Positions 11,980-36,299 of a stretch of 64,000 nt of DNA are shown one piece after another. How positions within the stretch are numbered: the stretch's first letter is position 1; each line of letters opens with the position of its first letter. Where the stretch lies: contig NZ_JACGWA010000011.1 of assembly GCF_014077505.1 (NCBI RefSeq), positions 1 through 64,000 on the forward strand, in the 5' to 3' direction. The notes beneath the pieces are model-generated. The model was given only the letters and a program-made list of their open reading frames with translations. It searched no databases and was not told where the DNA came from. A program made the translations under genes and the position numbers. This DNA comes from Colwellia sp. BRX10-3. Lineage in GTDB: Bacteria > Pseudomonadota > Gammaproteobacteria > Enterobacterales > Alteromonadaceae.

Positions 11980-11993
11980 TGAATACGTATGCA
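11980..11993. promoter_or_regulatory. MalR-type operator before the sugar MFS gene
   Basis: TGAATACGTATGCA is a near-perfect palindrome with a central CG step, typical of LacI-family operators. It lies 12 bases downstream of a TTGACA hexamer (11963-11968), where a bound repressor would cover the promoter, and 130 bases before the MFS start. The same motif occurs twice between the LacI gene and malP and twice before the TonB receptor. Confidence 0.75.
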
Positions 11994-12123
11994 GCTAATG
12001 TTGTATCTTAAAGACTATTGCTAAGATGGAAATCGATACCGTTAACCTATATTTTTGCTGAGTAAGCTTTTAAACCTAAAATGATAAAAGTTAACTCCGA
12101 TTTATAACAATAAGAGTTCGTAT

Positions 12124-13623
12124 ATGACCACCAAACCACAACTTAATTTTTGGCAAATTTGGAATATGTGTTTCGGCTTTATGGGAATACAGTTTGGTTT
12201 TGCCCTGCAAAATTCGAATGTCAGTCGCATATTTCAAACCTTAGGCGCAGACTATTCTAATATGGCCATATTATGGATTGCGGCGCCAATTACCGGACTT
12301 ATCGTTCAGCCTATTATTGGTTATTTCAGTGACAATACTTGGAATCGACTTGGCCGTCGTAAACCTTATTTCCTTTACGGTGCTATCGCCGCGAGTTTAT
12401 CGCTATTTATTATGCCCAACTCCCCTACTTTATGGGTTGCCGCAGGTATGCTGTGGATAATGGACGCGTCAATTAATGTTTCAATGGAACCCTTTCGCGC
12501 TTTTGTTGGCGACATGTTACCGAGAAAACAACGCGCAATGGGTTATGCCATGCAGAGTTTTTTTATCGCTGTTGCCTCAGTTGTCGCCTCATCTTTACCC
12601 TGGATGATGGCCAATTGGTTCGACATCAGTAATATTGCAGCACCCGGCTTACTGCCCGATACGGTGAAGTTTTCATTTTATGCCGGTGGTGTAATATTCT
12701 TGCTTGCTGTGTTGTGGACTATATATTCAACAAAAGAATATTCTCCTGAGCAATTACAAGCTTTTCAAGAAGCTGAAGATATAAACTTAAGTGAAGAAAT
12801 ATTTACCCCTCGCAGTGCAAAAAAATATTTTACTGGTGGTGCTAGTTGGTTACTACTAGGCTTAGTAAGCTTCGCCATAGTCGCGCTTAATATTCAGCAA
12901 CTAGATAAAAGTTTATTTATTCTTGCCGGTGGGTTTTGTTTCTTTGCTATTTGTCAGTTAGTGGCAGGCTTGATGGCAAAAAATAATAATCATAATGGCT
13001 TTGCGCAAGTAATGTCAGATTTATTTTCCATGCCACAAACCATGAAGCAACTCGCCTTTGTGCAGTTTTTTTCTTGGTTTCCATTTTTTGCCATGTGGAC
13101 GTACACCACAGCAGCAGTTACTGAATTCCACTTTGGCAGTTCTGATGTGACATCGGCAGCGTTTAATGAAGGCGCAGACTGGGTGGGAGTGCTGTTTTCA
13201 GCTTATAACTTAACCTCAGTTTTTGCTGCGATATGCATTCCAATGGTCGTTAAATATTTTAATTTACGCATTGCGCATATGATCAACCTATTCTTAGGTG
13301 GTGCTGGTTTTATCTCGTTCCTCTTCATTAAAGATCCAACCTTACTTATTGTTTCTATGATAGGTATCGGCTTTGCTTGGGCGTCAATTTTATCGGTACC
13401 CTACGCTATATTAGCCAATGCTTTACCGGCTAAAAAAATGGGTTTATATATGGGGATATTTAACTTCTTCATCGTATTACCGCAAATATTAGCCGCCAGT
13501 ATTTTAGGCTTTTTAATTACTAAGGTTTTCGACAATCAGCCGGTATATGCGCTCGCCGTTGGTGGAGCCAGCATGGTACTTGCGGGTATATTAACCTTAC
13601 GAGTAAAAGAGCCTGAGTACTGA
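12124..13623 (+). CDS. Sugar MFS carrier, probable maltose/maltodextrin transporter
   Basis: This 499-residue permease of about twelve helices resembles the GPH/SLC45-type sugar carriers of Alteromonadales and Xanthomonads, which serve as proton-coupled maltose or sucrose transporters. Markers are IIGYFSD and the LGRRKPY loop between helices 2 and 3, and SMEPFRAFVGDMLP in the fourth helix region. A MalR-type operator precedes it, and the LacI regulator, malP, malQ and an amylase follow. The maltose assignment rests on this context. A terminator follows the stop codon. Confidence 0.85.
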   Translation: MTTKPQLNFWQIWNMCFGFMGIQFGFALQNSNVSRIFQTLGADYSNMAILWIAAPITGLIVQPIIGYFSDNTWNRLGRRKPYFLYGAIAASLSLFIMPNSPTLWVAAGMLWIMDASINVSMEPFRAFVGDMLPRKQRAMGYAMQSFFIAVASVVASSLPWMMANWFDISNIAAPGLLPDTVKFSFYAGGVIFLLAVLWTIYSTKEYSPEQLQAFQEAEDINLSEEIFTPRSAKKYFTGGASWLLLGLVSFAIVALNIQQLDKSLFILAGGFCFFAICQLVAGLMAKNNNHNGFAQVMSDLFSMPQTMKQLAFVQFFSWFPFFAMWTYTTAAVTEFHFGSSDVTSAAFNEGADWVGVLFSAYNLTSVFAAICIPMVVKYFNLRIAHMINLFLGGAGFISFLFIKDPTLLIVSMIGIGFAWASILSVPYAILANALPAKKMGLYMGIFNFFIVLPQILAASILGFLITKVFDNQPVYALAVGGASMVLAGILTLRVKEPEY

Positions 13624-13663
13624 TAGCTTACTTCGAAAGTTACCTGTTTATAACAATCAAAAG

Positions 13664-13699
13664 AACTGAGTTCAGAATTATCACCGGACTCAGTTTTAT
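13664..13699 (+). terminator. Terminator of the sugar carrier gene
   Basis: The arms AACTGAGT and ACTCAGTT pair over 8 bp with a 16-base loop and are followed by TTATT. It lies 40 bases after the stop codon of the carrier. Confidence 0.6.
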
Positions 13700-13857
13700 T
13701 AACTTAAGGTTTACCTACCCCTCAATGGCTTCACCCGTATTCTTACCAACACATTCTTAAGATATAATGCTTTTTATGATTAACCTTAAAGCTTTGTAGT
13801 CAATATCAATACCAATAACAGTAGCTATATCAATAACAGAATAAAAATGAGTAATGC

Positions 13858-14274
13858 ATGCAAGTAAATATCATTAAAGAAGTGGCAGCCGTAGAAGACT
13901 TTTTACGCTTAAGGATAGTTTCAGGTTTAACACCTCGCCCTATTGAAGCCGCGAAAAAAGCCTTACCCAATAGTTTATTTGGCGTTCATCTTGTTGTTAA
14001 CGCAAGCACAGTTGCTATGGGCAGAGTGGTAGGAGATGGTGCGTTAAATTTCGAAATTGTTGATGTCGCGGTAGATCCTAATTATCAAGGTAAAGGCTTA
14101 GGTCGCATAGTAATGCAAAATATTATGCATTACCTTGAACAAAATGCAGTTGAAGGTGCTTACATTACCTTACTCGCCGATGTACCTGAGCTTTATAAAA
14201 AATTTGGTTTTGTGCTCAGCCGACCAGAATGTGAGGGTATGCATTGGGAACCAGGGCTTAAAAATAATGGTTAG
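13858..14274 (+). CDS. GNAT family N-acetyltransferase
   Basis: This 138-residue single-domain GNAT acetyltransferase has the acetyl-CoA binding loop YQGKGLGR in motif A, preceded by VDVAVDP, and ends with the typical LYKKFGF strand-helix element. The substrate cannot be told from sequence. It stands between the sugar carrier and a DUF3565 gene and is probably not part of the maltose pathway. ATG 13858 is the first in-frame start; no strong ribosome binding site precedes it. Confidence 0.82.
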   Translation: MQVNIIKEVAAVEDFLRLRIVSGLTPRPIEAAKKALPNSLFGVHLVVNASTVAMGRVVGDGALNFEIVDVAVDPNYQGKGLGRIVMQNIMHYLEQNAVEGAYITLLADVPELYKKFGFVLSRPECEGMHWEPGLKNNG

Positions 14275-14353
14275 CTTGTTTAAATTGAGTAGCTTGTTCA
14301 CGTTATCAATTCAAATTACTTAAAAAAGCCAATTTACAAATATGGGGATTAAC

Positions 14354-14566
14354 ATGCTACAAGCGATTATCGACTACCACCTCGATGACGAAAACCATTG
14401 GGTAGCTCGACTAGCCTGTGGTCATTTTCAACATGTTCGCCACCAACCGCCGTTTATTAATCGCCCTTGGGTACTTCAACAGTCAACGAGAAATGCAAAA
14501 CTTGGCCAAAAGCTAAATTGTATTAAGTGTGAAAATGGTGCTGCAGCAGATTTTAAGCCAACATAA
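14354..14566 (+). CDS. DUF3565 family small protein
   Basis: This protein of about 70 residues belongs to a conserved family without known function. Visible features are WVARLACGHFQHVRH followed by PP and RPWV, plus a late CIKC pair. With CGH these could form a small metal site, but that is inference. ATG 14354 is chosen because GGGGATT lies just before it; ATG 14342 would add four residues and itself overlaps that site. It is convergent with the LacI gene. Confidence 0.8.
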   Translation: MLQAIIDYHLDDENHWVARLACGHFQHVRHQPPFINRPWVLQQSTRNAKLGQKLNCIKCENGAAADFKPT

Positions 14567-14629
14567 CTGGCCGTTTTAAAGAGCCGCGAATGTGTAATAT
14601 AAATTCTGAAAGCAAAAAGGTGGGATTAC

Positions 14630-15652
14630 TTAGCTACCACAAGACTTTCGCACCACTAATGTCGCTGGCATTAATTGGGTTTTCGCCACTTCGCCGCTAA
14701 CTAATTGCAGTAACTTATCCACTAAAAGCTCACCTGCTAATACCGTGTCTTGTTTAGCGGTAGTTAATGCCGGAGAAGTAGAGCAAGCTGTAGCGATATC
14801 ATCAAAACCTACTATCGCAATATCGCCAGGTACATTATATCCCGCTTCTTGTATTGCTCGCATTGCACCAATAGCAATTAAATCGCTTGCCGTACAAATG
14901 GCATCAAATTTTATGCCTGAAGCTATAAGCTGTTGAGCGGCTTGATAGCCAGACTCATCTGTTGAAATAGCGTCAATTTGTAGATTACTATCAACGTTAA
15001 GGTTATTGTCTTTTAACGCTTGGCAGTGGCCTGTGTATCGGTCTAAAAACTCAGGAGAACCTGTACTAACACCCCCTAAAAAAGCAAAATGTTGACGGTT
15101 TTTCTTAATAACATGTTCTGTTACTTGATAACCGCCGTGAAAGTTATCACAACCAACAGACACTACTGACAGCCCTTTAACATCGGCGCCCCAGCGTACA
15201 AAGTGAGTTTCTTGTTTTATGAGTTGAACGAGCTTTTCTTCATAATCAGTGTAATCACCATAACCCAATAAAATAATGCCATCAGCTTTACGGGTATCTT
15301 CAAAGTCGGCGTGCCAATCATTACTCATTTGTTGGAAAGAAACTAATAAGTCATAGCCTTTTTTCGCACTTGCTCGAGTAATGCTACCTAACATCGATAA
15401 GAAGAATGGGTTGATCAAAGAATCATCATTGGTTGGGTCTTCAAAAAGTAATAATGCAATAGTGCCACTGAGTTGAGTGCGTAAACTACTGGCATTTTTA
15501 TCTACTTTATAGTTTAGCTCTTTGGCAATGGCTTGCACACGAAGACGCGTTTCCTCATTAACCAAAGGGCTATTACGCAACGCTCGTGACACGGTCGATT
15601 GAGAAACGCCAGCACGATAAGCAATATCAAATGATGTTTGTTTTGATCTCAC
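14630..15652 (-). CDS. malR: LacI family regulator, MalR-like
   Basis: This 340-residue LacI/GalR protein has an N-terminal helix-turn-helix (FDIAYRAGVSQSTVSRAL, residues 8-25), a hinge region around 45-60 and a periplasmic-binding-protein-like sugar domain, with a late DDIATACSTSPALTT segment. It lies between the sugar carrier and malP and reads away from malP. Two copies of a 14-bp palindrome lie in the divergent promoter region, so it probably controls these genes and itself. The start is GTG. The effector (maltose, glucose or another sugar) is unknown. The symbol is given by context. Confidence 0.88.
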   Translation of the reverse strand: MRSKQTSFDIAYRAGVSQSTVSRALRNSPLVNEETRLRVQAIAKELNYKVDKNASSLRTQLSGTIALLLFEDPTNDDSLINPFFLSMLGSITRASAKKGYDLLVSFQQMSNDWHADFEDTRKADGIILLGYGDYTDYEEKLVQLIKQETHFVRWGADVKGLSVVSVGCDNFHGGYQVTEHVIKKNRQHFAFLGGVSTGSPEFLDRYTGHCQALKDNNLNVDSNLQIDAISTDESGYQAAQQLIASGIKFDAICTASDLIAIGAMRAIQEAGYNVPGDIAIVGFDDIATACSTSPALTTAKQDTVLAGELLVDKLLQLVSGEVAKTQLMPATLVVRKSCGS

Positions 15653-15881
15653 AATAAACCTATAAGTAAAAATATCTAATTTATATTAACCGAGGGGTTA
15701 GGCTAAGTACATAATTTAATTGATGATGAGTAAACCTCACAAGACAAACATATTATCCCTATCACAACGGCTGCAAATAGCCAACATCAAGCGAATACCA
15801 AACCAGGCGCTTAGAATCCTAAGAACCACTTGTTAGCCAATAGACTGAGTAACTTAAAATAACGCTGATAAAACACTCAAA

Positions 15882-15895
15882 TACATACGTATGCA
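15882..15895. promoter_or_regulatory. MalR-type operator O1
   Basis: TACATACGTATGCA is the exact reverse complement of the second copy 39 bp away. The core ATACGTAT is fully symmetric, with a central CG as in LacI-family sites. Confidence 0.78.
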
Positions 15896-15920
15896 TCCAT
15901 TTTAACTCAGTTTTCTGCAG

Positions 15921-15934
15921 TGCATACGTATGTA
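15921..15934. promoter_or_regulatory. MalR-type operator O2
   Basis: TGCATACGTATGTA forms a pair with O1. The 39-bp centre spacing is about four helical turns, so dimers could face the same side of the DNA. It is about 200 bp before the malP start. Confidence 0.78.
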
Positions 15935-16129
15935 GCGCATTGCTCTAATTACTGACATCGGCATAATTAATTCAACAGTAAATTCAAACGCTAAAATAAA
16001 GCGAACTTTCAAAAATGCTTTTTAACGTGATGGACATTACCTTTTGTCTCGCTCACGAATTATTAACAGAGATAACGTATCTTCACCTTTTGCATTAATA
16101 CGAAGAAGTTAACATTTACCGACAATACA

Positions 16130-18667
16130 ATGTCCGATAAAAGAGTTTGTAGTTATATGGTTACTAAAACAAAAACGTCGACTAACACAAAGTCTTCAGC
16201 TAGAAATAAAACACAATCAATTACAGTGGCTGAGATTAGCCAACGTATCGAACACCACTTAAAATTCACTTTAGATGAACAAATCAACGTAGACCAAAAA
16301 CCAGCATACTGGCGCGCCACTTCCCTTGCGCTTAACGATATAATCGTAGGAAAACTACAAAGCACAAACGTTCGCCAACAGCAAAGCGAAGTAAAGTCGG
16401 TTAATTATTTGTCACTTGAGTATTTAATGGGTCGTTTGCTGTCCAATAATTTACATAACTTAGGTCTATATACCAATACTGAAAAAGCCTTGAAAACAAT
16501 GGGTTTTGAATTGGCCGATTTATGCGAACAAGGCGCTGATTTAGCGCTAGGTAACGGTGGTTTAGGCCGTTTAGCTGCCTGCTTTTTAGACTCACTTGCT
16601 ACCTTAGATTACAACGCTATGGGTTACGGTGTGCATTATCAACATGGTTTATTTAAACAAAGCTTTGCTGATGGCCAGCAAATAGAAACCCCAGATATGT
16701 GGCGTGAATTCGGTAGTCCATGGGAAATTTGTCGCCCTGAGTCAAGCCAAACCATTCCGCTTTATGGCCATGTTGAAGAAGTTGCCCAAGCTAACGGTAC
16801 ATTCAAATCAATTTGGCATGCCGGTAAAATGTTAAGAGGTGTACCTTGGGATGTGCCAATTGTTGGTTACAATTCTGATACGGTTAATGCTCTGCGTTTA
16901 TGGGAATGTCGTGCCGATAATGCCTTTGATTGGGATACATTCAATCATGGTGACTATTTACAAGCACACCAACAGCAAGTTGCTGCTGAAACCGTGTCAA
17001 AAGTACTTTATCCAAATGACGAACACGACGCAGGTAAAGAATTACGCTTTGTTCAGCAATATTTTTTCTGCGCCTGTTCAGTGCAAGACATCATTGCTCG
17101 TTTTGAAAACCAATATGGCGCTATTGCAGAGCAGAGTAAATGGCAAATATTCTGTGACAAAGTGGCTATTCAGTTAAATGATACCCACCCTACCATCGCT
17201 ATTTTAGAATTAATGCGCACGCTCATAGATAACCATAATGTTGATTGGGATAATGCCTGGGCGATATGTCAAAAAGTATTTGCTTACACAAATCATACAT
17301 TATTACCTGAAGCTCTAGAAAAATGGTCAGTGGCTTTATTTGCACGTGTACTTCCGCGCCACTTAAGCATTTTATATCGTATTAATGAAGCGTTCTTAAA
17401 TAATGAAGTTGATGTGCTATGGCCTAACAATGATGAAATGCGCGCTCGCTTATCACTTATTGAAGAGGGTCATGAACCTAAGGTTCGTATGGCACATCTT
17501 TGTGTTGTTACTGCACATAAAGTTAACGGCGTAGCCCAAATTCATTCAGACCTAGTAAAACAAGACTTATTTCCAGAATTTGACCAACTATGGCCAAAAA
17601 AATTAACCAATGTTACTAACGGCATTACTCCTCGTCGTTGGTTAAAAGCATGTAATCCTTTATTAGCTAATTTACTTGATAACACCATTAACGGTGATTG
17701 GGCTAAAGATCTCAACAGTTTAAGTGAACTTAAAAACCTTGCTGACAATGTCGATTTTCAACAACAATTTATGGCAATAAAGCAGCAAAATAAAATTGCC
17801 TTAACGAAAGAAATTAAAAAACTAACCGGTGTTACCGTCAGCCCTGATGCGATTTTCGATGTGCAAATTAAACGTTTACATGAATACAAACGTCAACATT
17901 TAAACCTATTACATATCATAGCGTTATATCGGCAACTATTAGCTAACCCTGAGCTAGATATGCAACCACGTGTGTTTATCTTTGGCGCTAAAGCAGCTCC
18001 TGGTTACAAACTAGCAAAAGAGATTATTTACGCGACCAACAAAATCGCTGACAAGGTCAACAATGATGTTCGCATTCAAGACAAACTGAAAGTGGTGTTT
18101 TTACCTAATTATCGCGTTAGTTTAGCGGAGAAAATAATCCCTGCTGCTGATGTTTCTGAGCAAATATCTACCGCAGGTAAAGAAGCATCAGGTACCGGTA
18201 ACATGAAATTAGCTCTCAATGGCGCTGTCACTATAGGCACACTTGATGGCGCGAACATCGAAATTGCAGAAGAAGTCGGCGCTGACAATATCTTTATTTT
18301 CGGTTTAACAGTTGATGAAGTGAAAGCCTTAGATACGCAAGGCTATAACTCATACCAATACTACGAAAGTAACGCCGAAATTCGTGCTTGTTTAGATTGG
18401 CTCGACACTGATTACTTTACCCCAGGCAAGCCCGGTGAATTATCGGTGATTAAAGAGTGCTTCTTAGGTGGTGGTGATCCATACAAAGTGTTGGCTGATT
18501 TTCAAAGCTATTCTGATGCACAGCATGCATTAGGTAAGGCTTATCAAGACCCAAGTCGATGGGCAAAAATGGCGATATTAAACACCGCGTTAATGGGTAA
18601 GTTTAACTCAGATCGTTCCATTGAAGATTATGTACAAAACATTTGGCACTTAACAGTGAGTAAATAG
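16130..18667 (+). CDS. malP: Maltodextrin/glycogen phosphorylase
   Basis: This PLP-dependent alpha-glucan phosphorylase releases glucose-1-phosphate from maltodextrins or glycogen in the cytoplasm. The PLP motif EASGTGNMKLALNG is intact, with the cofactor lysine at about residue 693, and GNGGLGRLAACFLDS is near residue 140. The protein is 845 residues, with a low-complexity Lys/Thr/Ser-rich N-terminal extension of about 30 residues compared with E. coli MalP. The start could instead be ATG 16157. Its position after malR and before malQ favours a maltodextrin role over a glycogen role. Confidence 0.93.
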   Translation: MSDKRVCSYMVTKTKTSTNTKSSARNKTQSITVAEISQRIEHHLKFTLDEQINVDQKPAYWRATSLALNDIIVGKLQSTNVRQQQSEVKSVNYLSLEYLMGRLLSNNLHNLGLYTNTEKALKTMGFELADLCEQGADLALGNGGLGRLAACFLDSLATLDYNAMGYGVHYQHGLFKQSFADGQQIETPDMWREFGSPWEICRPESSQTIPLYGHVEEVAQANGTFKSIWHAGKMLRGVPWDVPIVGYNSDTVNALRLWECRADNAFDWDTFNHGDYLQAHQQQVAAETVSKVLYPNDEHDAGKELRFVQQYFFCACSVQDIIARFENQYGAIAEQSKWQIFCDKVAIQLNDTHPTIAILELMRTLIDNHNVDWDNAWAICQKVFAYTNHTLLPEALEKWSVALFARVLPRHLSILYRINEAFLNNEVDVLWPNNDEMRARLSLIEEGHEPKVRMAHLCVVTAHKVNGVAQIHSDLVKQDLFPEFDQLWPKKLTNVTNGITPRRWLKACNPLLANLLDNTINGDWAKDLNSLSELKNLADNVDFQQQFMAIKQQNKIALTKEIKKLTGVTVSPDAIFDVQIKRLHEYKRQHLNLLHIIALYRQLLANPELDMQPRVFIFGAKAAPGYKLAKEIIYATNKIADKVNNDVRIQDKLKVVFLPNYRVSLAEKIIPAADVSEQISTAGKEASGTGNMKLALNGAVTIGTLDGANIEIAEEVGADNIFIFGLTVDEVKALDTQGYNSYQYYESNAEIRACLDWLDTDYFTPGKPGELSVIKECFLGGGDPYKVLADFQSYSDAQHALGKAYQDPSRWAKMAILNTALMGKFNSDRSIEDYVQNIWHLTVSK

Positions 18668-18745
18668 CGACAAAATTTAATGTCCGTTCATCAGTTTTTT
18701 TAAAAGGCATTTATTGTAGAAATAAAAGTCAACGGCTATTAGCTG

Positions 18746-18856
18746 ATGAAAAGATTGAAAACGCTAATTATTATCGCCTCTGTGTTTTCAGAGACTAATT
18801 TTAAAAATAATAACGCCAGCGCTAGCGTGCGAAGCGATCAGCAAAGAGAAACATAG
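18746..18856 (+). CDS. Possible short ORF before malQ
   Basis: A 36-codon open frame (begins MKRLKTLIIIASVF) ends one base before the malQ start codon. It has a basic start and a short hydrophobic stretch. There is no clear ribosome binding site. It could be a leader peptide coupled to malQ translation, or chance. I cannot support a function. Confidence 0.2.
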   Translation: MKRLKTLIIIASVFSETNFKNNNASASVRSDQQRET

Positions 18857-18857
18857 A

Positions 18858-21041
18858 ATGAACTTAATTGAGAAACTTGCAAAACTTGTTGGCTTTCATG
18901 CAACTTATACCAATTCATTTGGCGAAAAAGTTTTTGCCAAAGATGAGGCGAGACACTCGTTACTTAATGCTATGGGTTATGATCTTTCATGTGATAAAAA
19001 GATCGCAGCTAGTATTACTGAGCTAGAACAAAAAACTTGGCGTAACATGCTGCCACCAGCACACATTGCAAAATTTGAAGCTGAGCAGCATCACGTAACT
19101 ATCAGTATTGCAAACTCAGCAATGCCAGAACTGAACTGGGAAATCACCCTAGAATCAGGAGCAAAGATTAAAGATCGTATAACGTTAACTGCCTTAACCT
19201 TGCTAGATTCTGCCACATTCAACGATTCAGTATTTACCAAATATGCTCTACCATTGCCGGCCTTAGCACAGGGTTATCATCAATTAACTCTTCAATACGG
19301 TGAACTTAGTGCAACCTGCCCTTTGATATTTGCACCACAAACTTGTTATAGCCCGCAAGAAGCCTCAAGCGATAAAATGTGGGGTTATGCTGCACAATTA
19401 TATTCATTAACCAGTACAGATAACTTAGGTATGGGTGACTTTGGTGATTTAGCTAAACTGATTGATATATCAGCCAAACAACAAGCGTCAGCTATTGGTT
19501 TAAACCCTTTACATCCGCTATATCAGAATAATCCGGCACACCGCAGCCCTTATTCCCCCACTAGCCGTTGTTTTTTGAATACGCTGTACATTGATATTAA
19601 ACAAGTGCCGAACTTTGCGAACTGCCAAGTGGCACAATCGCGCTTTCACAGTGAAGAAATTCAACACAAAATTTCCCTCGCAAGACAAACAAAGTTAATA
19701 GACTACCCTGCTGTCGCCGATATAAAATTTGAAATTTTAGAGTTATTATTTCAAGACTTTATCAGTACAATTACAGATGAATGTGCTGAATTAAAGGAGT
19801 TTAACGCATTTAAGCACAGCCAAGGTGAAGACTTATTACAATTAGCCACTTTTGAAGCGCTGTACGAACACTTTAGAAAAACTGATCCTAATGCTTATGG
19901 TTGGCCTAATTGGCCAACTGAATTTCAAGCACCTGACAGCTATGAAGTTAAAGCTTTTCAGCAAGAGTATTCAAGCCGTATTAACTACTTCTGTTTTTTA
20001 CAGTGGCTCGCGCATCGTCAATTAAAGTCGGTCGCCAAACAAGCAAAAGATGCAGGAATGCCTGTTGGTTTATACCTTGATTTAGCCGTGGGTTGTGACG
20101 GTTCAGGTGTAGATGTTTGGTCAGATAAAGATGTCTATGTCGCTGGCGCAGCCGTTGGCGCACCACCCGATGCCATGAATACCTTAGGACAAGATTGGGG
20201 ACTAACGCCAATTAATCCCGTTGCACTGCAAAAGCAAGGCTATCAGCCGTTAGTAAAAGCATTACGCAGCAATATGCAATATGCCGGTGCACTGCGCATC
20301 GATCATATTCTAGGATTAATGCGTCAATATTGGGTAGCGCCAGGCATGAAAGCCGATCAAGGTGTTTATATTACCTTCCCTCTGGAAGACATTTTACGCA
20401 TTATAGCGTTAGAGTCTCGCCGCAATAACTGTGTTGTTATCGGTGAAGATTTAGGCACGGTTCCAGATGGTTTTGGCGAAATAATGGCACGTGCTGGTTT
20501 GTTATCTTACAAAGTATTGTTTTTTGAACGCTGGGACTCTGGCTTTTTCATGCGTCCAGAGCTTTACCCTGCGCAATCTATGGTGACAGTATCAACCCAC
20601 GACTTACCAACACTGGCGGGTTGGTGGACAGGTAAAGATCTTGAGTGGCGTCAAAAACTCCAACTTTACCCTAACGAAGTTATGGGACAAAACGAGCGTA
20701 ATAGCCGTATTGAAGATCGAAAACTTTTGCTTGATGCATTAAACGATCACAACGTCATAGATATGAGTAAAGCACCTGCTCAGGCGCCTGCAACAATGAA
20801 CCGAGAATTAAGCCTTGGCGTGCAAAAATACATGGCAAAAGCTCCAAGCCATATTCAATTAATTCCGCTTGAAGATGCTTTAGATGTAATTGAACAAGTT
20901 AATATTCCAGGCACTATAGATGAACATCCAAATTGGCTACAAAAATTGCCAGTGACTATCGAAGAGTTTGATCAAATTGATTCCGTTACCGAACTCGCGA
21001 CAGCAATGAAAATTGCTCGACCTAGAACTAACCGCCATTAA
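18858..21041 (+). CDS. malQ: 4-alpha-glucanotransferase (amylomaltase)
   Basis: MalQ disproportionates short maltodextrins so that MalP can degrade them. This 727-residue GH77 enzyme is of the long form, with an N-terminal extra domain as in E. coli (694). The catalytic nucleophile is Asp482 in ALRIDHILG, the acid/base Glu530 is in VIGEDLGTVPDGF, and the third carboxylate is Asp582 in STHDLPT. It lies 190 bases after malP on the same strand and 54 bases before the amylase, consistent with one operon. Confidence 0.95.
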   Translation: MNLIEKLAKLVGFHATYTNSFGEKVFAKDEARHSLLNAMGYDLSCDKKIAASITELEQKTWRNMLPPAHIAKFEAEQHHVTISIANSAMPELNWEITLESGAKIKDRITLTALTLLDSATFNDSVFTKYALPLPALAQGYHQLTLQYGELSATCPLIFAPQTCYSPQEASSDKMWGYAAQLYSLTSTDNLGMGDFGDLAKLIDISAKQQASAIGLNPLHPLYQNNPAHRSPYSPTSRCFLNTLYIDIKQVPNFANCQVAQSRFHSEEIQHKISLARQTKLIDYPAVADIKFEILELLFQDFISTITDECAELKEFNAFKHSQGEDLLQLATFEALYEHFRKTDPNAYGWPNWPTEFQAPDSYEVKAFQQEYSSRINYFCFLQWLAHRQLKSVAKQAKDAGMPVGLYLDLAVGCDGSGVDVWSDKDVYVAGAAVGAPPDAMNTLGQDWGLTPINPVALQKQGYQPLVKALRSNMQYAGALRIDHILGLMRQYWVAPGMKADQGVYITFPLEDILRIIALESRRNNCVVIGEDLGTVPDGFGEIMARAGLLSYKVLFFERWDSGFFMRPELYPAQSMVTVSTHDLPTLAGWWTGKDLEWRQKLQLYPNEVMGQNERNSRIEDRKLLLDALNDHNVIDMSKAPAQAPATMNRELSLGVQKYMAKAPSHIQLIPLEDALDVIEQVNIPGTIDEHPNWLQKLPVTIEEFDQIDSVTELATAMKIARPRTNRH

Positions 21042-21095
21042 ATTCGTTAACCTTGGCTAAAATTGACTAACATTGACTAACATTGGATAAAAAAT

Positions 21096-22955
21096 ATGTT
21101 TAAAAAGAACAAACTATCCGCATTGTTGTTATCAACCTTCGCGACATTGGTTTTCGCTGGTTGTGGCAGTGATAAAGTAATAAAGAATACACAAGTTGAG
21201 CAATTATCAGTTGCAGGGGTAAATGTAAAGTCTGGGCAAACTAACACTACAAAGCAATATAAAACCGCAGCCGACCTGCAGCATTACCTTGAACGCGATG
21301 TGCAAGAAGAAGTGTTTTATTTTGTCATGCCTGACCGCTTCAACAATGGTAATACCGATAATGATTTAGGCTCAAAAACTCAGCCTATTTCTGCTGGTGG
21401 ATTGGATAAAACCAACAAAGGTATGTTTCATGGCGGTGATATTCAAGGTCTTAAAGACAAATTACCTTACTTAAAAGAATTAGGTATATCTGCCATTTGG
21501 TTAACGCCTATTCTACGTAACCAAGCCATGCAAGCTGACAGTTCGGGTTATCATGGCTATTGGGTATTAGATTTTACTGAAATTGACCCACACCTGGGCA
21601 GTAACGACGACTTAAAAGATCTAATCAATAGTGCTCACGCTGAAAACATTAAAATTTATTTCGATATTATTACCAATCATACCGCTGATGTTATTAAGTA
21701 CGTTGAATGTCATGGTGAAGACGGCCTACAGTGGTTAGTTAAGTCTGATAAAGGTTGTCCATTTAAATCATTAGAGCAATTGGCTAGAGGCGATAAATAC
21801 ACCACGGTAATTCCACAGGGGCACGAGCAATTAAAAACCCCAGCTTGGTTGAACGATCCAAAGTATTACCACAATCAAGGTGATTCTTTCTGGCAAGGTG
21901 AAAGTGCAAAACGAGGAGATTTTGCTGGCCTTGACGATATTGATACCAACAACCCTGAAGTACTTGCAGGAATGATAGATATTTTCAAAAACCTCATCAC
22001 TGAATTTAAACCTGACGGTTTTCGCATTGATACCGTTAAGCATGTAAACACTGATTTTTGGGCTGAGTTCTCACCAGCATTAGTTAATCACGCACAAAGT
22101 ATCGGCATTAAAAACTTTTTTATGTTTGGCGAAGTTTATAGCTTTACCAGTAAAGAGCTAAGCGAATACACCACCGCCGGCAATATGCAATCAGTATTAG
22201 ATTTTGGCTTTCAAAGTGCCATGGTCCAAAGCTTAATAGAACAAAAAGGCACTAAAGCGTTAGCGACACTTTTTGCCGATGATGTTGATTATCTTGATCA
22301 TGACAGTAACGCTAATCAGTTAATGAATTTTACGGGTAATCACGATATGGGACGCTTTGCTTATATGTTAAAACAAAGCGAGTTTAATTACAGTGAAGAA
22401 CAAATGGTTAAACGTAATTTACTGGCTCATGCCATGACCTATTTTATGCGTGGTGTACCCATTATTTATTACGGGGACGAGCAAGGTTTTGTCGGTGATG
22501 GCGGCGACCAAGCATCACGCCAAGATATGATGCCATCATTAGTTGCTAGTTATAATGACGATGACTTATTAGCCACTGACGCTACAACCGCAGACGATAA
22601 CTTTAATACTCTGCACCCTATTTACCAAAGTTTCGCGCAATACGCTGATATTTTTTATCAATATCCAGCACTACGTCGAGGAGAACAAAAAACGGTATAT
22701 CAAGCCGATAACAATGCTATTTTCGCTATCACTCGTAGTTTAGCGTTTACTGATAAAGCAAATAACGAAAGCTCAAAAATGTTAATCGTTTTTAATACTG
22801 CTGATAAGTCAGCAAAAGCCAGTATTGCGCTGCAAGATGAAAGTTATCGATTAGTTGTTGGTGAAAACAAACTTACACAATCGAGCAAAGATACTCATAC
22901 CATTGAAATGCCGGCACTAAGTTTCGCGATATATGAAAAAATCATAAGCGAGTAA
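21096..22955 (+). CDS. GH13 alpha-amylase lipoprotein
   Basis: This 619-residue alpha-amylase family enzyme hydrolyses alpha-1,4-glucans. A lipoprotein signal (MFKKNK, hydrophobic core, then FAGC with the lipidated Cys at about 22) places it on the periplasmic side of a membrane or on the cell surface. The GH13 triad is Asp312 (GFRIDTVKH), Glu346 (FGEVY) and Asp417 (TGNHDMGR). It is last in the malP-malQ cluster and followed by a terminator. Its likely task is shortening maltodextrins before inner-membrane transport. The exact product pattern cannot be read from sequence. Confidence 0.92.
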   Translation: MFKKNKLSALLLSTFATLVFAGCGSDKVIKNTQVEQLSVAGVNVKSGQTNTTKQYKTAADLQHYLERDVQEEVFYFVMPDRFNNGNTDNDLGSKTQPISAGGLDKTNKGMFHGGDIQGLKDKLPYLKELGISAIWLTPILRNQAMQADSSGYHGYWVLDFTEIDPHLGSNDDLKDLINSAHAENIKIYFDIITNHTADVIKYVECHGEDGLQWLVKSDKGCPFKSLEQLARGDKYTTVIPQGHEQLKTPAWLNDPKYYHNQGDSFWQGESAKRGDFAGLDDIDTNNPEVLAGMIDIFKNLITEFKPDGFRIDTVKHVNTDFWAEFSPALVNHAQSIGIKNFFMFGEVYSFTSKELSEYTTAGNMQSVLDFGFQSAMVQSLIEQKGTKALATLFADDVDYLDHDSNANQLMNFTGNHDMGRFAYMLKQSEFNYSEEQMVKRNLLAHAMTYFMRGVPIIYYGDEQGFVGDGGDQASRQDMMPSLVASYNDDDLLATDATTADDNFNTLHPIYQSFAQYADIFYQYPALRRGEQKTVYQADNNAIFAITRSLAFTDKANNESSKMLIVFNTADKSAKASIALQDESYRLVVGENKLTQSSKDTHTIEMPALSFAIYEKIISE

Positions 22956-26760: not shown

Positions 26761-26961
26761 TTATAATATGCAGAGGAACATAAGCTAATACAATGCTTGA
26801 GAACCGCGCCGCTATATTCTCCCAGTGGATTATTTTCGTCACTCTACCTAAAAGCTTAACCTTGACCTGACCCTATTTATATACATTGAAAATGAATGAG
26901 TCACCATTATTAAAGTTTGCTCTGGAAATTAAACTATAAGGGGTTACCACTATAGTGCTTT

Positions 26962-27360
26962 TTAGCTATAGCTACGCAACCTACCTAAGAAATTGTTTAT
27001 ATAACCGTTATACATATTAAATAAATCATGAAACACCATTTTTTTCGAAGTGGTTCGTACAAGTACTTCTGTGAGCTCTTCATTTTTATAAAAAGTAATA
27101 GTCATTTTGGTTGAAAGTATTAAAGGCCAGCCTATTGGTTTTATAACAGTATCAAAACAATCCTCAGTAATTTGAGTTATTTGGGTGTAAGAATAAAAAC
27201 GCTTTTTTTCACTTAATATTGTTTTGATGTAACCACTGATTTCCTGAACAGGAATTTCAAATGATTCTGCAATTTCCCTTTTTACAGTCACAATATTATC
27301 GATATGACTAACGCATTGAAAGAAGCAGAACAAAGGTGAAAAACAGCTAAAAATTCGCAC
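26962..27360 (-). CDS. Hypothetical protein downstream of the GST gene
   Basis: This predicted protein of up to 132 residues starts at GTG 27360, 14 bases after the GST stop, so the two are probably one transcript. From about residue 24 (TVKREIAESFEIP) the pattern of a helix followed by strands, ending in a basic helix (NNFLGRLRSYS), vaguely recalls small START/SRPBCC-like folds, but I cannot claim that family. The Cys/Phe-rich first 20 residues look non-native, so the true start may be the GTG codon at residue 24. Confidence 0.5.
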   Translation of the reverse strand: MRIFSCFSPLFCFFQCVSHIDNIVTVKREIAESFEIPVQEISGYIKTILSEKKRFYSYTQITQITEDCFDTVIKPIGWPLILSTKMTITFYKNEELTEVLVRTTSKKMVFHDLFNMYNGYINNFLGRLRSYS

Positions 27361-27374
27361 ACTTCAAAATCAGC

Positions 27375-28097: not shown

Positions 28098-28213
28098 TGT
28101 GCTCTTCTTGATGAATTCATTTTCTGCTAATACTGCAACTTTAACGGTATTCATTAGGGAAATATACGGGTAAAATCCCTGCTCTGAAATTTAGCGAATA
28201 AAAAGTTGTACAA

Positions 28214-30514: not shown

Positions 30515-30550
30515 ATAAGGTACGATTTATTATTTAGACAATGTAAATTA

Positions 30551-30595
30551 AAAAAGCCACTCACTTACGATTATAAAGTAAATGAGTGGCTTTAT
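30551..30595. terminator. Bidirectional terminator between rlhA and the aldo/keto reductase gene
   Basis: AAAGCCACTCA pairs with TGAGTGGCTTT (11 bp), and the stem extends by a further TTAC/GTAA. An A-run lies on the left and a T-run on the right. The flanking genes converge. Confidence 0.82.
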
Positions 30596-30631
30596 TGATG
30601 GTTAACTTAACACTTTATTTAAAAAGAAAAA

Positions 30632-31549
30632 CTACGGCACTGCTTGGCCATTTCTAGCTTCTAGCAAGCGATACCAATCTTCACGCGAGTAATCTAGTGC
30701 TAAGGCTTGTTTGGCCGCAACAATGCGCTCTGGGGTCGTTGAACCTATAATGGGGCAAATATTGGCAGGGTGTTTTAACAACCAAGCAAGAATAACTTGC
30801 CAAGGTGCGCAACCATAGATTTTACTTTGGCTGTTTAGTTCTCTTTCAATTCTTTGCTCATCTTCAACTGAAAACGTATTTCCCCATGCAGAATAAGCAA
30901 CACCGCCTAGCGGACACCAGGCAATAGGTGTAATACCCTGTTGCTGACATTGATCTAACGTGCCATCAAGTAAGGTATCGATATTGTGAATATTAATTTC
31001 TACTTGATTGACCAATAATGGCATAGATAACGCAGATTTTAACAACTCAACTTGTGACGGTTTAAAGTTACTAACTCCAAAATGCTTAACCTTACCACTG
31101 GCTTTTAATAGCGCAAAGGTTTCAGCCACTTCGTGCACGTCAAATAAATAATCGGGACGATGCAGTAAAAACATATCTAAATAATCAGTATTTAACCGCT
31201 TTAAAGAACCTTCAACGCTAGACAATAAATACTGTCGACTAAAGTCATAACGTTTTGGCGCGTAGCTATCCTCATTATTATTTGGTCGTATACCGGCTTT
31301 TGAGGTGATAATAATTTCTTCACGTAAATATGGTTGTTCTGCTAACAATTCACCAAAAAGGCTTTCGCAAGTACCGCCTCCGTAGATATCAGCATGATCA
31401 AAATGATTATAGCCAGCTTCGAGCGCTGCCATTACGGCTTGTTTACCTTTAGCACGATCACTCGTGCTATTGTCACCAGCAATACGCATGCAGCCGTAAA
31501 TAAAGCGTGATGACTCGATAGTGGAATTGCCGATTGAGATTTTTTTCAT
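30632..31549 (-). CDS. Aldo/keto reductase (YdhF-like)
   Basis: This 305-residue NADPH-dependent aldo/keto reductase has the (beta/alpha)8 barrel pattern. The catalytic Asp-Tyr pair is in FDHADIYGGG, a Lys is in IITSKAG, and the His is in LLHRPD. The closest named relative by look is E. coli YdhF. It is third in the receptor-halogenase-reductase operon, 20 bases after the halogenase. The substrate is unknown; a sugar or an aldehyde is possible given the regulon. Confidence 0.88.
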   Translation of the reverse strand: MKKISIGNSTIESSRFIYGCMRIAGDNSTSDRAKGKQAVMAALEAGYNHFDHADIYGGGTCESLFGELLAEQPYLREEIIITSKAGIRPNNNEDSYAPKRYDFSRQYLLSSVEGSLKRLNTDYLDMFLLHRPDYLFDVHEVAETFALLKASGKVKHFGVSNFKPSQVELLKSALSMPLLVNQVEINIHNIDTLLDGTLDQCQQQGITPIAWCPLGGVAYSAWGNTFSVEDEQRIERELNSQSKIYGCAPWQVILAWLLKHPANICPIIGSTTPERIVAAKQALALDYSREDWYRLLEARNGQAVP

Positions 31550-31569
31550 TTTTTACTCTTGGTTCTTGA

Positions 31570-33060
31570 TTAAATTTTATTAAGAAACGCTTCATGTGTC
31601 GGCAACTTATCAACCGAACGTTGAATTAATACCTTTAAATTATCAAATAATTCTTCTAATTGGTCTTTTGTGAGCTGGTCGCTTAACGGGTGAGTATCAT
31701 TTGGTACTAGTCCTTGACCAATCATGACTTGCTGCCATGCTATTTCTGTAAATAAATCATCATAATCTCTAAATACTTTACCTGAAGATTTAAACAGCGC
31801 CATTTTAGTGGCTAATGACTCTGGGATATCCATGCGTTGACATTCACGCCAAAATGGCGAGTCACCACGCTGGTTTAACTTATAATGCAAAATAATGAAA
31901 TCTCGAATTTTTTCGATTTCTATTTTTGATTGTCGGTTAAACTCATTAATTTCTTCTTCTTTTATGCCTTGATGAGGGAAATGTTTAATTAATCGAATTA
32001 CTGCGGTTTGAATCAAGTGAATACTGGTCGACTCTAGCGGCTCTAAAAAGCCACTTGATAGACCAATCGCAACAACATTCTTATTCCATTGCTTTCTTCT
32101 TCTACCGGTTTGAAAAGGGATCACTTTAGGCTCTGCAAGCGGCTCACCATCAACATTAGCTAACAAAATTTTCTTTGCACTTTCGTCATCTAAATAGCGG
32201 CTCGAATAAACAATACCGTTACCTGTTCTATGCTGTAGAGGAATTTGCCATTGCCAACCGGCTTCATGGGCAATAGATCGAGTAAATGGTTTAATCGGCG
32301 TTGTCGATGTTGTTGGCATCGCCATCGCTCGATCACAAGGAAGCCAATGTGACCAATCTTCATAGCCTGTGTTTAAGGCTTTTTCTATCAATATTCCGCG
32401 CATTCCAGAACAATCAATAAAAACATCACCAACAACCTTTTGCTGATTATCCAATGTTAAGGTTTTTACATTGCCCGTTTTATTATCAAGCTCAACATCT
32501 TCAATAATGCCTTCAATTCTCTCAACCCCTTTAGCTTCGCTATATTCTCGCAAAAACTTAGCATATAAGCCGGCATCAAAATGGTAGGCATAAGTAATAC
32601 CTGGGATATTCGTACCTTCAAGATTAGGCATTTTACCGAATTTATTCTGCGTTGCCGCTTGATAGTTTACTGAAAAGTCCCAAAAGTCTGACGCTATGCC
32701 TAGTTGCTGACTTTTTACCCAAAAATGATGAAAGTCACAAAATGGAAAGTTTTTGCCTACGCCACCAAAAGCATGCATATAACTGCTGCCAAGCTCTTTC
32801 CAATTTTCAAATTGAATACCTAGCTTTATTGTTGCTTTGGTCGCTTTTAAAAAATCATTTTCATTAATACCGAGTGCGTTATTAAAGTTAATCATTGGTG
32901 GAATTGTCGCTTCTCCAACACCCACTATGCCTATTTTTTCTGATTCTATTAAAGTGATCTTAACGGCTTTTCCTAAAATTTTAGCTAACAAGGCAGCTGA
33001 AATCCAACCTGCGGTACCCCCGCCAACAATAACAACATTTGTGACTTTATCTTTACTCAT
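31570..33060 (-). CDS. Flavin-dependent halogenase (tryptophan halogenase family)
   Basis: This 496-residue protein has the FAD site GGGTAGW at 13-19, GEATIP near 49-54, and Lys79 in the same register as the catalytic Lys79 of PrnA. It also has the halogenase signature WQWQIP and the LEPLEST segment containing the catalytic Glu. All key residues are present, so it should be able to halogenate a substrate with reduced flavin. No tryptophan or antibiotic genes are near. Instead it follows a TonB receptor with MalR-type operators, an association seen widely in sugar-uptake clusters of Alteromonadales and Caulobacter. The substrate is unknown. Confidence 0.9.
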
Positions 33061-33100
33061 TACTACCTCTAGCTAAAACAGATTTTCAGGTTATTTAAAT

Positions 33101-33135
33101 AAAAAAGCCCCTGCAATATTTATATTACAAGGGCT
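33101..33135 (-). terminator. Intra-operon terminator/attenuator after the TonB receptor
   Basis: On the minus strand AGCCCTTGTAATAT pairs imperfectly with ATATTGCAGGGGCT and is followed by TTTTTT. It lies between the receptor stop (33155) and the halogenase start (33060). Partial read-through would give much receptor and little halogenase and reductase. Confidence 0.75.
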
Positions 33136-33154
33136 AAATAAATACTAGATTAAT

Positions 33155-35956
33155 TTACAGCTTGTAGCTGAAACCTAGCAAATATGTACGACCATAATCT
33201 TGATAATCGCGTACTTGAAGTGCATTTTCGCCCTGAAGAGAGGTAAATGGTTCTGCAGTTAAGTTATAGCCTTGTAAGAATACTGACAAGCCTTCTAAAC
33301 CTTCGATACCTGCTTCACCAAAGTCATAACCAATTTGTGCATCCCAGACCGTTTCGCCAACAATATCAACTTGCGTAGTAGTGAAGCCTAAACCGTAAAC
33401 ATCGCCTTTAAAATCACCACGCTTGCGCATGCTAGTTCTAAATTGAATACCTTCTTTCTCATAGTAAAATGTCAAATTTTGAATTTTGCTCGAAAGACCC
33501 GGTAATTCGTAATCATTACTATTGTGGTCATCAATATTTGACTTAACTCCAGTATGACTAGCAATTAATCCAAAACCATCTAAGCGTTCATCAATAATTT
33601 TGAATGGAAATGTCACCGACAGTTCATAACCCCAAAGTGTGCCGCCGCCGCCATTAACTTTGCCATTACCTGAGGCTATTGGGTTATCAGGTATGTTTCC
33701 TGTTTCTGGATTTACTACACCTGACATGTCAACTTCATATTTTCCGTCGAAGATCCACTGATCTAAATCTTTCCAGAAAAATGCTGTTGAAAAGTAACCT
33801 TCATCACTGAAATAGTTTTCATATGATAAATCCACACCTAATGCTTCTTTTGGCTCAAGTAATGGGTTACCACCACTAATACTCCAATTATTGCCGTTGT
33901 CATCTACTTGCTGACTATAATTAGCATTGACTGAAGCATTCATTTCATCAAGACGGGCACGAGATATAGTTTTAGCGATACCAAAGCGTAACGTTTGTTC
34001 ATCATCAATACGCATTGACAAGTTCAAGCTCGGTAAAACGTTTGAATAATCATGGCTAATATCTGTCGGTGTAGTTACAACCTTTTGATCAATAGTCTGA
34101 ATAGCTGAGCCTCTAGAGCTCTGCTCGGTTTGTACATAACGCACACCAAGATTACCCGTTACTGGAAAGCCGCCTATTTCAGTATCGATGTCAGCTTGAA
34201 CAAATAAAGCGGTAACTTCTTCGTTAACTGACCAAGATTTAGTAGCATGACTAGAATTTGTTAAACTTTCGCGCGTTAAGTCGTAGTAACCGTCTCTTAT
34301 TAACCCTTGAGTATCATAAGCTATCATGTCACCCATACCGATAAAACCTAATGAAGCAGTTCCTTCTCTATATTGCTCTGGGACTGCCATCATGCCTGGA
34401 TTGTCAGGGTATGAAAACGATGAAAGCGTCATAAAGTAACCTTCTGACTCTTTTACTTTTTCGCGCTCACGATATGAAAAACCGTAAGTAATACTTGCAA
34501 TAACGTCATTTTCTATCACTTGAGTTGCCGCCAGTTTAATGGCTTTTAGTTCATCATCAATGCTTGGCGCATTAATAAAACCATCTTGTAACTGGTTTTC
34601 ATATTCAGTGCCTGTAACACCAAACTTATCATTTAATGCTTGGCTCCAGCCCCAAGATAACGGACCGCCTAATTGAATAAGATTGAAATCACTGTAATCT
34701 AAGTCATGGGTAAAAGTAGCGCCAGTATTGCCGCCATCAAAGGTATAACCTAAGTTATCGGCAACACCACGAGCATCACCACGACCGGTACCTGAGTAAC
34801 TTTCAACACTCCAAGTTTCACGTTCAACTTTAGAGTAGCTGACATCAAAGTCTAATGCCCAATCGTCATTAAGGTCATATTTAGCATTAAAGCCAAATGA
34901 TGTCAGTTCAGCGTTTCGCTCTTCGTAGTCATTACGAACAACTACGCGCTGGCCTTGTGTAATAGCACTTGTTACAAAACCGGTATCCGGGTCAATAGTT
35001 GCTGTGTCGCCAGAAATAGAGCCTTGGCCCCAAGCGAAAGGTACTTCAATGCCGCGTAAAATCTTTTCATCAGAAAAGTCTACGTAAAGGGCATCAAAAG
35101 TCATTAATAATTTGTCGTTCGGCGCAACTTCTACAACAAGCATAGTTGAGTCGCGATCTAGTGTAGATGAACGAACAAAAGGTTTAGCACCACCAAGTAT
35201 AGAACCCGTAGTGCCATCTCCATTGGTAAATTCAGGGTAACCCCATGCGTTCCAGCGCTTCTCTTGATTTGGAGAGCTCATTCTAGAATGTGCAAAAGCT
35301 ACACCAACGGTGTCATCAGCAAATTTATCCATATAAGCAAATGTGCCACGAAAACCGCTGTCGTTGCCATCAGGATTTAATTTATCAAAACTGGTTTGCT
35401 CTAATTGGCCATTGAATTGGATAACACGTTCTGATTGAGACAAAGGTTTGACTGTTTGCATATCGATAACACCAGCGATACCTTCACCTTCTATAGTGGC
35501 ATTAGGCGTTTTATAAACCGTTACACCGCTCATGATTTCTGATGGATATAAATCAAACTCAACGCCTCGGTTATCACCGATAGAAACTTGCTCACGACCG
35601 TTGAAGGTAGTTGCACTTTCATTTTCGCCAAAACCGCGAATACTGACTTTACTTGCTCGACCATCTAGTCGCTGTGCTGCAAGGCCAGGTAAACGAGCTA
35701 AAGATTCAGCAATAGAGGAGTCTGGCAGTTTACCAATATCTTCAGCTGATATAGTCTCTACTACGCTAGATGAAAAGCGTTTTTTGTTAATTGACTCTAT
35801 TAAGCTTCCGCGAAAGCCTTTTACTTCAATGACTTCAACTTCTTGTTCTGATACTTCTTTAGCTGCCGTTTCTTCAGCAAGCAGTGGCATACTTAACGCC
35901 ATAAATCCGCTTGATAGCAAAGCCAAAGTTACTCGGCTTGGTTTAAAATTTAACAT
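33155..35956 (-). CDS. TonB-dependent receptor, probable maltodextrin uptake
   Basis: This 933-residue outer-membrane receptor has a signal peptide ending at LLAEE, a TonB-box-like IEVKGF near 43, a plug domain (ISAEDIGKLPDSSIAESLARLPG) and a long beta-barrel, ending in SYKL. It looks like the large TonB receptors of Xanthomonas/Caulobacter type used for oligosaccharides. Two MalR-type palindromes lie 134 and 330 bases upstream of its start. This regulatory link, not homology alone, suggests maltose or maltodextrin as substrate. It heads an operon with a halogenase and an aldo/keto reductase. Confidence 0.92.
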   Translation of the reverse strand: MLNFKPSRVTLALLSSGFMALSMPLLAEETAAKEVSEQEVEVIEVKGFRGSLIESINKKRFSSSVVETISAEDIGKLPDSSIAESLARLPGLAAQRLDGRASKVSIRGFGENESATTFNGREQVSIGDNRGVEFDLYPSEIMSGVTVYKTPNATIEGEGIAGVIDMQTVKPLSQSERVIQFNGQLEQTSFDKLNPDGNDSGFRGTFAYMDKFADDTVGVAFAHSRMSSPNQEKRWNAWGYPEFTNGDGTTGSILGGAKPFVRSSTLDRDSTMLVVEVAPNDKLLMTFDALYVDFSDEKILRGIEVPFAWGQGSISGDTATIDPDTGFVTSAITQGQRVVVRNDYEERNAELTSFGFNAKYDLNDDWALDFDVSYSKVERETWSVESYSGTGRGDARGVADNLGYTFDGGNTGATFTHDLDYSDFNLIQLGGPLSWGWSQALNDKFGVTGTEYENQLQDGFINAPSIDDELKAIKLAATQVIENDVIASITYGFSYREREKVKESEGYFMTLSSFSYPDNPGMMAVPEQYREGTASLGFIGMGDMIAYDTQGLIRDGYYDLTRESLTNSSHATKSWSVNEEVTALFVQADIDTEIGGFPVTGNLGVRYVQTEQSSRGSAIQTIDQKVVTTPTDISHDYSNVLPSLNLSMRIDDEQTLRFGIAKTISRARLDEMNASVNANYSQQVDDNGNNWSISGGNPLLEPKEALGVDLSYENYFSDEGYFSTAFFWKDLDQWIFDGKYEVDMSGVVNPETGNIPDNPIASGNGKVNGGGGTLWGYELSVTFPFKIIDERLDGFGLIASHTGVKSNIDDHNSNDYELPGLSSKIQNLTFYYEKEGIQFRTSMRKRGDFKGDVYGLGFTTTQVDIVGETVWDAQIGYDFGEAGIEGLEGLSVFLQGYNLTAEPFTSLQGENALQVRDYQDYGRTYLLGFSYKL

Positions 35957-36089
35957 TGGTGAACTCCCCTATACATCCATGCTTTATTTATTATTCAGCG
36001 TTCCAGCGCTGATGTAGCTATTTGTATTTTTCTGCTTAGTTTTGCAGACAATTCTAATATAGAGTGGAGTCCTGTTGATGAATACTATT

Positions 36090-36103
36090 TGCATACGTAT
36101 TCA
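36090..36103. promoter_or_regulatory. MalR-type operator, receptor-proximal
   Basis: TGCATACGTATTCA is the exact reverse complement of the operator before the sugar carrier (TGAATACGTATGCA). It lies 134 bases upstream of the receptor start. Confidence 0.75.
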
Positions 36104-36285
36104 TAAGTCCTCTACAAATACCTATAGGAAAGACAAACATGATACATCATCCAATTTCTTTTAAAATAAAAACCCAACTGAATAACATTTAACTATTTAA
36201 TAACATGGAGTTACAAAAAAATAAAAACCGATTTTTAAAATAGTATTTGCCACAACAATTAATAATTTTCTTTTAATATCAGCTT

Positions 36286-36299
36286 TGAATACGTATGTA
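36286..36299. promoter_or_regulatory. MalR-type operator, receptor-distal
   Basis: TGAATACGTATGTA has the same ATACGTAT core. It is 196 bp from the proximal copy and about 350 bases upstream of the divergent membrane-protein gene. Confidence 0.7.

Follow-up and report, generated by a model that had tools for sequence, protein, structure and literature searches.

A predicted MalR regulon in Colwellia sp. BRX10-3: oriented sites before maltodextrin genes and a TonB receptor-halogenase locus

A maltodextrin regulon under a LacI-type MalR has been described in Shewanella and is said there to occur in some other Alteromonadales (PMC2996990). The genes analyzed here resemble that regulon in joining a LacI-type MalR, a TonB receptor (Omp-Mal in Shewanella), a carrier and alpha-glucan enzymes through one motif, and differ from it, as far as the available part of that account goes, in including malP-malQ and a pullulanase and in having a halogenase behind the receptor; the two regulons are set side by side at the level of description. 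Since such a regulon is already published for Shewanella (PMC2996990), and sites here likewise precede genes for a TonB receptor, a carrier and alpha-glucan enzymes, we place the core within a kind already known. MalA of Caulobacter and XCC2469 of Xanthomonas are maltodextrin TonB receptors, the latter induced by maltose, and in these cases, too, the TonB receptor shares its locus with amylolytic enzymes as well as a transporter and a regulator (PMC1790865, likened by description); the word halogenase is absent from the main text of that paper. MalR of S. pneumoniae, a LacI-family repressor of maltodextrin genes (PMC4451989), belongs to the same family and goes with the same type of genes, but differs in being a repressor, from a Gram-positive organism, with no TonB receptor. 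Neither PMC5343134 nor PMC5507952 contains the term MalR.

The window, that is the whole 64,000-nt stretch under analysis, is part of a genome of 3.87 Mb in 55 contigs. RegPrecise holds MalR regulons for Alteromonadales, and parts of the regulon may already be there. The features of the window are as follows; promoter hexamers are consensus matches and denote predicted promoters.

11980..11993, + strand: predicted MalR site TGAATACGTATGCA towards the sugar carrier (pattern scan, orientation analysis)
11999..12027, + strand: predicted carrier promoter, TGTTGT 11999-12004 and TAAGAT 12022-12027 (offsets 19, 42)
12124..13623, + strand: MFS / GPH-type sugar carrier (Pfam, NCBIfam; NCBIfam scores below cut-off)
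14630..15652, - strand: LacI-family regulator, MalR-type (Pfam, NCBIfam)
15882..15895, - strand: predicted MalR site between malR and malP (G at base 11 in both orientations)
15921..15934, + strand: predicted MalR site TGCATACGTATGTA, closest to malP (pattern scan, orientation analysis)
15940..15967, + strand: predicted malP promoter, TTGCTC 15940-15945 and CATAAT 15962-15967 (shifted by one base from the usual offset)
16130..18667, + strand: alpha-glucan / maltodextrin phosphorylase, malP (Pfam, NCBIfam)
18858..21041, + strand: 4-alpha-glucanotransferase, malQ (Pfam, NCBIfam)
21096..22955, + strand: GH13 enzyme (Pfam, NCBIfam)
30632..31549, - strand: aldo/keto reductase, behind the halogenase (Pfam, neighbourhood)
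31570..33060, - strand: flavin-dependent halogenase, PF04820 (no second one found in the genome)
33106..33135, - strand: terminator-like hairpin and T-run between receptor and halogenase (folding)
33155..35956, - strand: TonB-dependent receptor, TIGR01782 type, predicted maltodextrin receptor (Pfam, NCBIfam, relatives)
36056..36084, - strand: predicted receptor promoter, TATTCA 36084-36079 and TATATT 36061-36056 (offsets 19, 42; predicted start near 36049)
36090..36103, - strand: predicted MalR site TGAATACGTATGCA towards the receptor (pattern scan, orientation analysis)
36286..36299, + strand: predicted MalR site TGAATACGTATGTA pointing away from the receptor (no -10 at the offset)

Apart from these, a 346-aa ORF at 36645-37685, preceding lgt, is without any Pfam match.

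Scanning the window with TGNATACGTATNCA at up to 3 mismatches returned 25 places, and only the five sites that the sequence-only reading had picked out, all of them intergenic, had 0 mismatches (11980 and 36090) or 1 (15882, 15921 and 36286). No place had exactly 2 mismatches and the other 20 all had 3; the earlier reading had noticed no further intergenic copy in the window. At up to 3 mismatches the window was not enriched (25 places against a shuffle mean of 35.8), nor was the whole genome at 2 mismatches (80 against 131 for the backward pattern); because the counts at 2 to 3 mismatches do not exceed the controls, the signal is confined to near-exact matches.

In the whole genome, 15 places had 0 or 1 mismatch to TGNATACGTATNCA (three and 12, respectively), namely the five of the window, C50:63111, C50:63313 and C50:68308 on a second contig, and seven others. 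Four of these seven lie within ORFs; C44:77146, a one-mismatch place that lacks a -10 at the offset described below, stands before a GH13 gene, C47:251877 precedes a HrpA-like helicase gene, and C44:92867 (TGTATACGTATATA) is located in the gap between an S9-peptidase-like ORF, so labeled from its sequence, and an ORF of the endonuclease/phosphatase family. The strict pattern TRNATACGTATNYA gave 8 matches in the genome and 0 for the backward control, with five of the 8 inside the window (P = 6.6e-8 under random placement, computed post hoc). Carbohydrate genes had been expected behind whatever a genome scan would add, and the strict matches outside the window on C50 do mark an alpha-glucan locus, bringing to 7/8 those found at such loci; the eighth is likely C44:92867, whose TGTATACGTATATA fits the pattern. 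Site C50:63111 ends in CC instead of CA and is thus a near match (1 mismatch) rather than a TRNATACGTATNYA match itself, backed by a -10 at the rule offset.

On C50, sites 63111 and 63313 are upstream of a second TonB receptor gene, the product of which is 36% identical to the first receptor over residues 3-503, and a gene for a 1455-aa pullulanase begins 18 bp behind it. Site 68308 is upstream of a GH13 gene, followed by a second GH13 gene whose product carries a C-terminal glucodextranase module. Of the 20 TonB plug-domain genes in the genome, two are located at the sites of window and C50 (matched by position).

The protein encoded at 14630-15652 combines an N-terminal LacI HTH (PF00356, 1.5e-15) with a periplasmic-binding-like domain (PF13377, 9.4e-25); no equivalog cut-off was reached against NCBIfam. 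Its gene adjoins the sites; no other LacI HTH gene was found in the genome by a search that was positive in 9/14 control genomes. The genome is thus seen with one LacI-family gene and 20 TonB plug-domain genes.

We then calculated the co-occurrence of regulator and sites in 40 genomes, our own included, taking as MalR ortholog a protein of ~58% identity or more. The 24 genomes with an ortholog had 3-11 strict sites each, while among the 16 without one 13 had no strict site, two had 1 and one had 2; at least three sites were therefore present in 24/24 and 0/16 genomes, respectively (Fisher 1.6e-11, kinship not corrected). The recognition helix AGVSQSTVSRAL is kept in those orthologs whose N-termini were compared, with one S-to-P change. 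A MalR-type gene with comparable surroundings was also detected farther away: the best 5 of 4363 plasmid records matching MalR are alphaproteobacterial (52-58% identity), and four of them (Qipengyuania, Sphingomonas, Sphingobium, Novosphingobium) encode a receptor homolog of 36-39% identity divergent from malR, with a ATACGTAT-core palindrome between both genes, recognized by scan in three (1-2 mismatches) and by eye in the fourth. The fifth, from Niveispirillum, has neither receptor homolog nor site.

The sites could in principle belong to a regulator other than this LacI protein, their identity being read from sequence alone; we consider this very improbable, as no second LacI HTH gene was found in the genome, orthologs and sites co-occur, the same core lies beside the ortholog in alphaproteobacteria, and the sites have the even palindromic form with central CG that is usual for LacI/GalR operators (1251 even palindromes of 1303 for LacI-family transcription factors, with a central CG in 1173; PMC4052901). 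The earlier assignment of the sites to the LacI-type MalR is thus sustained by the only such gene found and by the survey of 40 genomes.

A similar picture was obtained from the receptor side, where 600 bp upstream were scanned in 78 loci of named genomes carrying a relative of the window receptor. The exact site was present in 58/78; the backward pattern appeared exactly in 5/78 and within 1 mismatch in 35/78, a control that is soft in these loci because all five exact matches and most of the others overlap the true site. The 20 relatives without a site within 600 bp comprise 15 from Microbulbifer, 2 from Halieaceae and 3 distant ones; a replacement palindrome was sought there and discarded, the commonest CG-centred one being common to just 4 loci and GC-only. 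These results also bear on whether the sites reflect chance, or shared promoter ancestry, without common regulation. Such a reading could appeal to the counts at 2 to 3 mismatches, which do not rise above controls, and to related promoters, which inflate counts; against it, strict matches exceed backward ones in the genome (above) and, summed over the 24 ortholog genomes, by 163 to 12, and the receptor site is conserved in genera where the remaining upstream sequence differs. With these figures we reject chance origin and regard a reading without common regulation as extremely improbable.

We therefore treat the sites, with high confidence, as predicted operators of the LacI-type protein at 14630-15652, in a regulon that is itself a product of computation. 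Through them MalR would control the sugar carrier, the malP-malQ-GH13 genes, and the TonB receptor along with the halogenase that follows; it would also control the C50 locus with the second TonB receptor, the pullulanase and two GH13 enzymes. The proposal that the three loci of the window form one MalR regulon is thus supported, and the regulon is extended beyond the window. We infer that MalR binds these sites and that its signal is probably an alpha-glucan sugar. What was a local guess becomes a predicted regulon, in which two TonB receptors gain a substrate class.

To describe the placement of the sites, strict sites were collected where an ORF of 110 aa or longer lay no more than 450 bp away (314 rows after duplicate removal). 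In 235 rows the downstream ORF most resembled one of the references (receptor, GH13 enzyme, malP, malR, carrier); in the other 79 it resembled none, and some of these look unrelated to sugars. The decoys (LGT, U32 peptidase, deformylase) gave the best match in none of the 314 rows. Class counts are biased, as the loci had been retrieved through homology to the receptor or MalR, or through the pattern itself. From 212 nearest sites, 198 were kept (ORF of at least 280 aa, at most 320 bp away), giving 103 non-redundant promoters. Counted from the site start, a TANNNT begins at offset 42 in 43/103 and at offset 43 in 25/103 of these (68/103 in total); the median over offsets is 1.9%, and in 500 letter shuffles no single offset exceeded 14.6%. 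The highest -35 score falls at offset 19, which places the element 5 bp behind the 14-mer; the hexamers are poor and, taking the best of three spacers, average 2.9 and 3.5 of 6.

By class, the rule was followed in 25/26 TBDR1, 8/8 GH13c, 7/9 TBDR2, 8/14 GH13a, 4/5 MFS, 3/3 GH13-glucodextranase, 1/1 GH13b, 1/2 malP, 1/9 malR and 10/26 other promoters. In the window, 11980 (carrier) and 36090 (receptor) follow it, 15921 (malP) is one base off with hexamer CATAAT, and 15882 has no TANNNT at the rule offset on either side. On C50 it is followed by 63111, towards the receptor, and by 68308; 63313 faces away from its receptor and nevertheless has a TANNNT at offset 43, and on its outward side no ORF of at least 120 aa starts before a convergent GH13 gene. 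The -10 was not at the rule offset at the alphaproteobacterial plasmid sites scanned.

Most sites are oriented rather than symmetric, the TATGCA half facing the -10-like element. In the 68 promoters obeying the rule, base 11 is G in all and base 2 is A in ~80%. When 284 non-redundant oriented sites were analyzed with genes ignored, the -10 was found in 59/85 sites of the A2/G11 kind and in 6/121 of the mirror kind (C2/T11), with 15/63 for symmetric C2/G11, 0/10 for A2/T11 and 1/5 for rarer kinds. LexA-type control sites in the same relatives showed no fixed offset (no position outside the site exceeded 4/21).

Most LacI-family proteins act as repressors, and repressor-type LacI operators overlap the promoter core or lie downstream of it, with flexible placement. 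The placement observed here, at a fixed offset before the core, is of another type, with which repression is still compatible. At most promoters analyzed the site, in a single orientation, would be centred near -47 and stop 5 bp short of a weak -35; from there, we infer, bound MalR helps RNA polymerase, that is, activates. An activator touching RNA polymerase needs a fixed distance and orientation and a repressor could show them as well, so we lean moderately towards activation.

The same regulon could also be run by MalR as a classical repressor which, without sugar, would occupy the stretch just ahead of the -35, stopping or retaining RNA polymerase, until a maltodextrin releases the protein. 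We regard this as a possible but less likely arrangement: the reach of a LacI dimer past the 14 bp would approach the -35, the usual behaviour of the family and the precedent of MalR in S. pneumoniae (PMC4451989) speak for it, and against it are the poor -35 hexamers and the constancy of distance and orientation across different gene classes, which repression does not require. The sequence-only reading had pictured a regulator released by sugar; the regulon it outlined stands, while the fixed site-promoter distance leans to activation over a sugar-released repressor. Among the matches listed in our literature search, no LacI-type MalR activator was seen and no oriented fixed-distance operator was found, and the available part of PMC2996990 has nothing on halogenases, activation by MalR or oriented sites. 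Should the rule of position and orientation mean activation, it would add a dedicated activator to a mostly repressor family.

The two sites before the receptor had been read together as belonging to its operon. This holds for 36090, which faces the receptor; 36286 faces the opposite way and has no -10 at the offset, making a second receptor operator less likely. In a relative (L086) with a receptor 88-89% identical, a pullulanase gene diverges on the 36286 side, where in relatives the ORF of a pullulanase or of some other lipoprotein-like protein begins; 36286 is therefore probably the remnant of a lost divergent promoter. Compared with L086, the window keeps there just 17 bp over the site, whereas the receptor end is 90% identical over 210 bp. 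A search of the window with four divergent proteins gave no clear remnant of the gene (best E 0.20), and the only strong match of the L086 pullulanase in the genome (53% identical) is directly behind the second receptor. At both receptor promoters a second, outward-facing site (36286-36299 and C50:63313-63326) is present ~200 bp upstream, with no matching gene left there.

The receptor gave no sequence match to solved structures. Many Pseudoalteromonas loci show the recurring order receptor, halogenase, GH13, carrier, and in Thalassotalea loci the receptor lies beside malR, carrier, GH13 or malQ; as sugar genes adjoin the receptor in these genera, its maltodextrin role rests on neighbourhood and sites. 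The role first proposed from the sites in the window thus gains backing, independent of them, from neighbourhoods in other genera and on sphingomonad plasmids, and the window receptor most likely carries maltodextrins across the outer membrane.

By profile and motifs, the gene behind the receptor encodes a flavin-dependent halogenase of the Xcc4156/BrvH type: PF04820 matched at 1.9e-192, with no other member found in the genome, and GGGTAGW 13, ATIKLG 76 and WQWQIP 269 correspond to the family's GxGxxG, Lys79 and WxWxIP, which we take to be flavin-dependent halogenase motifs. The best solved relatives are 9LUQ (E 5.7e-208), 6Y1W (Xcc4156, 2.5e-158) and 6FRL (BrvH, 2.7e-137). The available parts of the reports on Xcc4156 and BrvH state that their native substrates were not known to the authors (PMC7336383, PMC5945002); the window gene differs from both in sitting in a predicted maltodextrin regulon.

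In 71/73 scored loci (5/78 had no scorable one) a same-strand halogenase gene follows the receptor gene within 500 bp. The pairing spans Colwelliaceae, Pseudoalteromonas, Microbulbifer and SAR92/Halieaceae, and recurs on two alphaproteobacterial plasmids. In 72/73 loci a fold below -6 kcal/mol followed by at least four T separates receptor and halogenase; that of the window, at 33106-33135, has -18.2 kcal/mol (z -3.9). Given this hairpin, halogenase expression may depend on read-through, and the levels of receptor and halogenase may be uncoupled by it.

No halogenase in a LacI or maltodextrin regulon was found among the matches listed in the literature search, and LacI and halogenase have 0 occurrences in PMC7564069. 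Our analysis suggests that what goes beyond the published MalR regulon is the oriented fixed-distance operator and the place of the halogenase in the regulon. Taken to its full extent, the reading would be that of a dedicated LacI-family activator with an oriented operator 5 bp before a weak -35 in many marine genera, together with a halogenase of the BrvH/Xcc4156 type made upon maltodextrin uptake and working with or on the uptake system, a combination we advance tentatively. The receptor-halogenase neighbourhood gives the natural role of BrvH-like halogenases a concrete growth condition to examine.

The loci differ in their company. In Microbulbifer loci L115-L158, receptor and halogenase are kept together without a MalR-type site. 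On two of the plasmids, the halogenase behind the receptor is accompanied by GH13 and GH97 genes, and in Qipengyuania (L194:3329-11745) two annotated halogenase genes, a GH97 gene and two alpha-amylase-family genes form one run behind the receptor.
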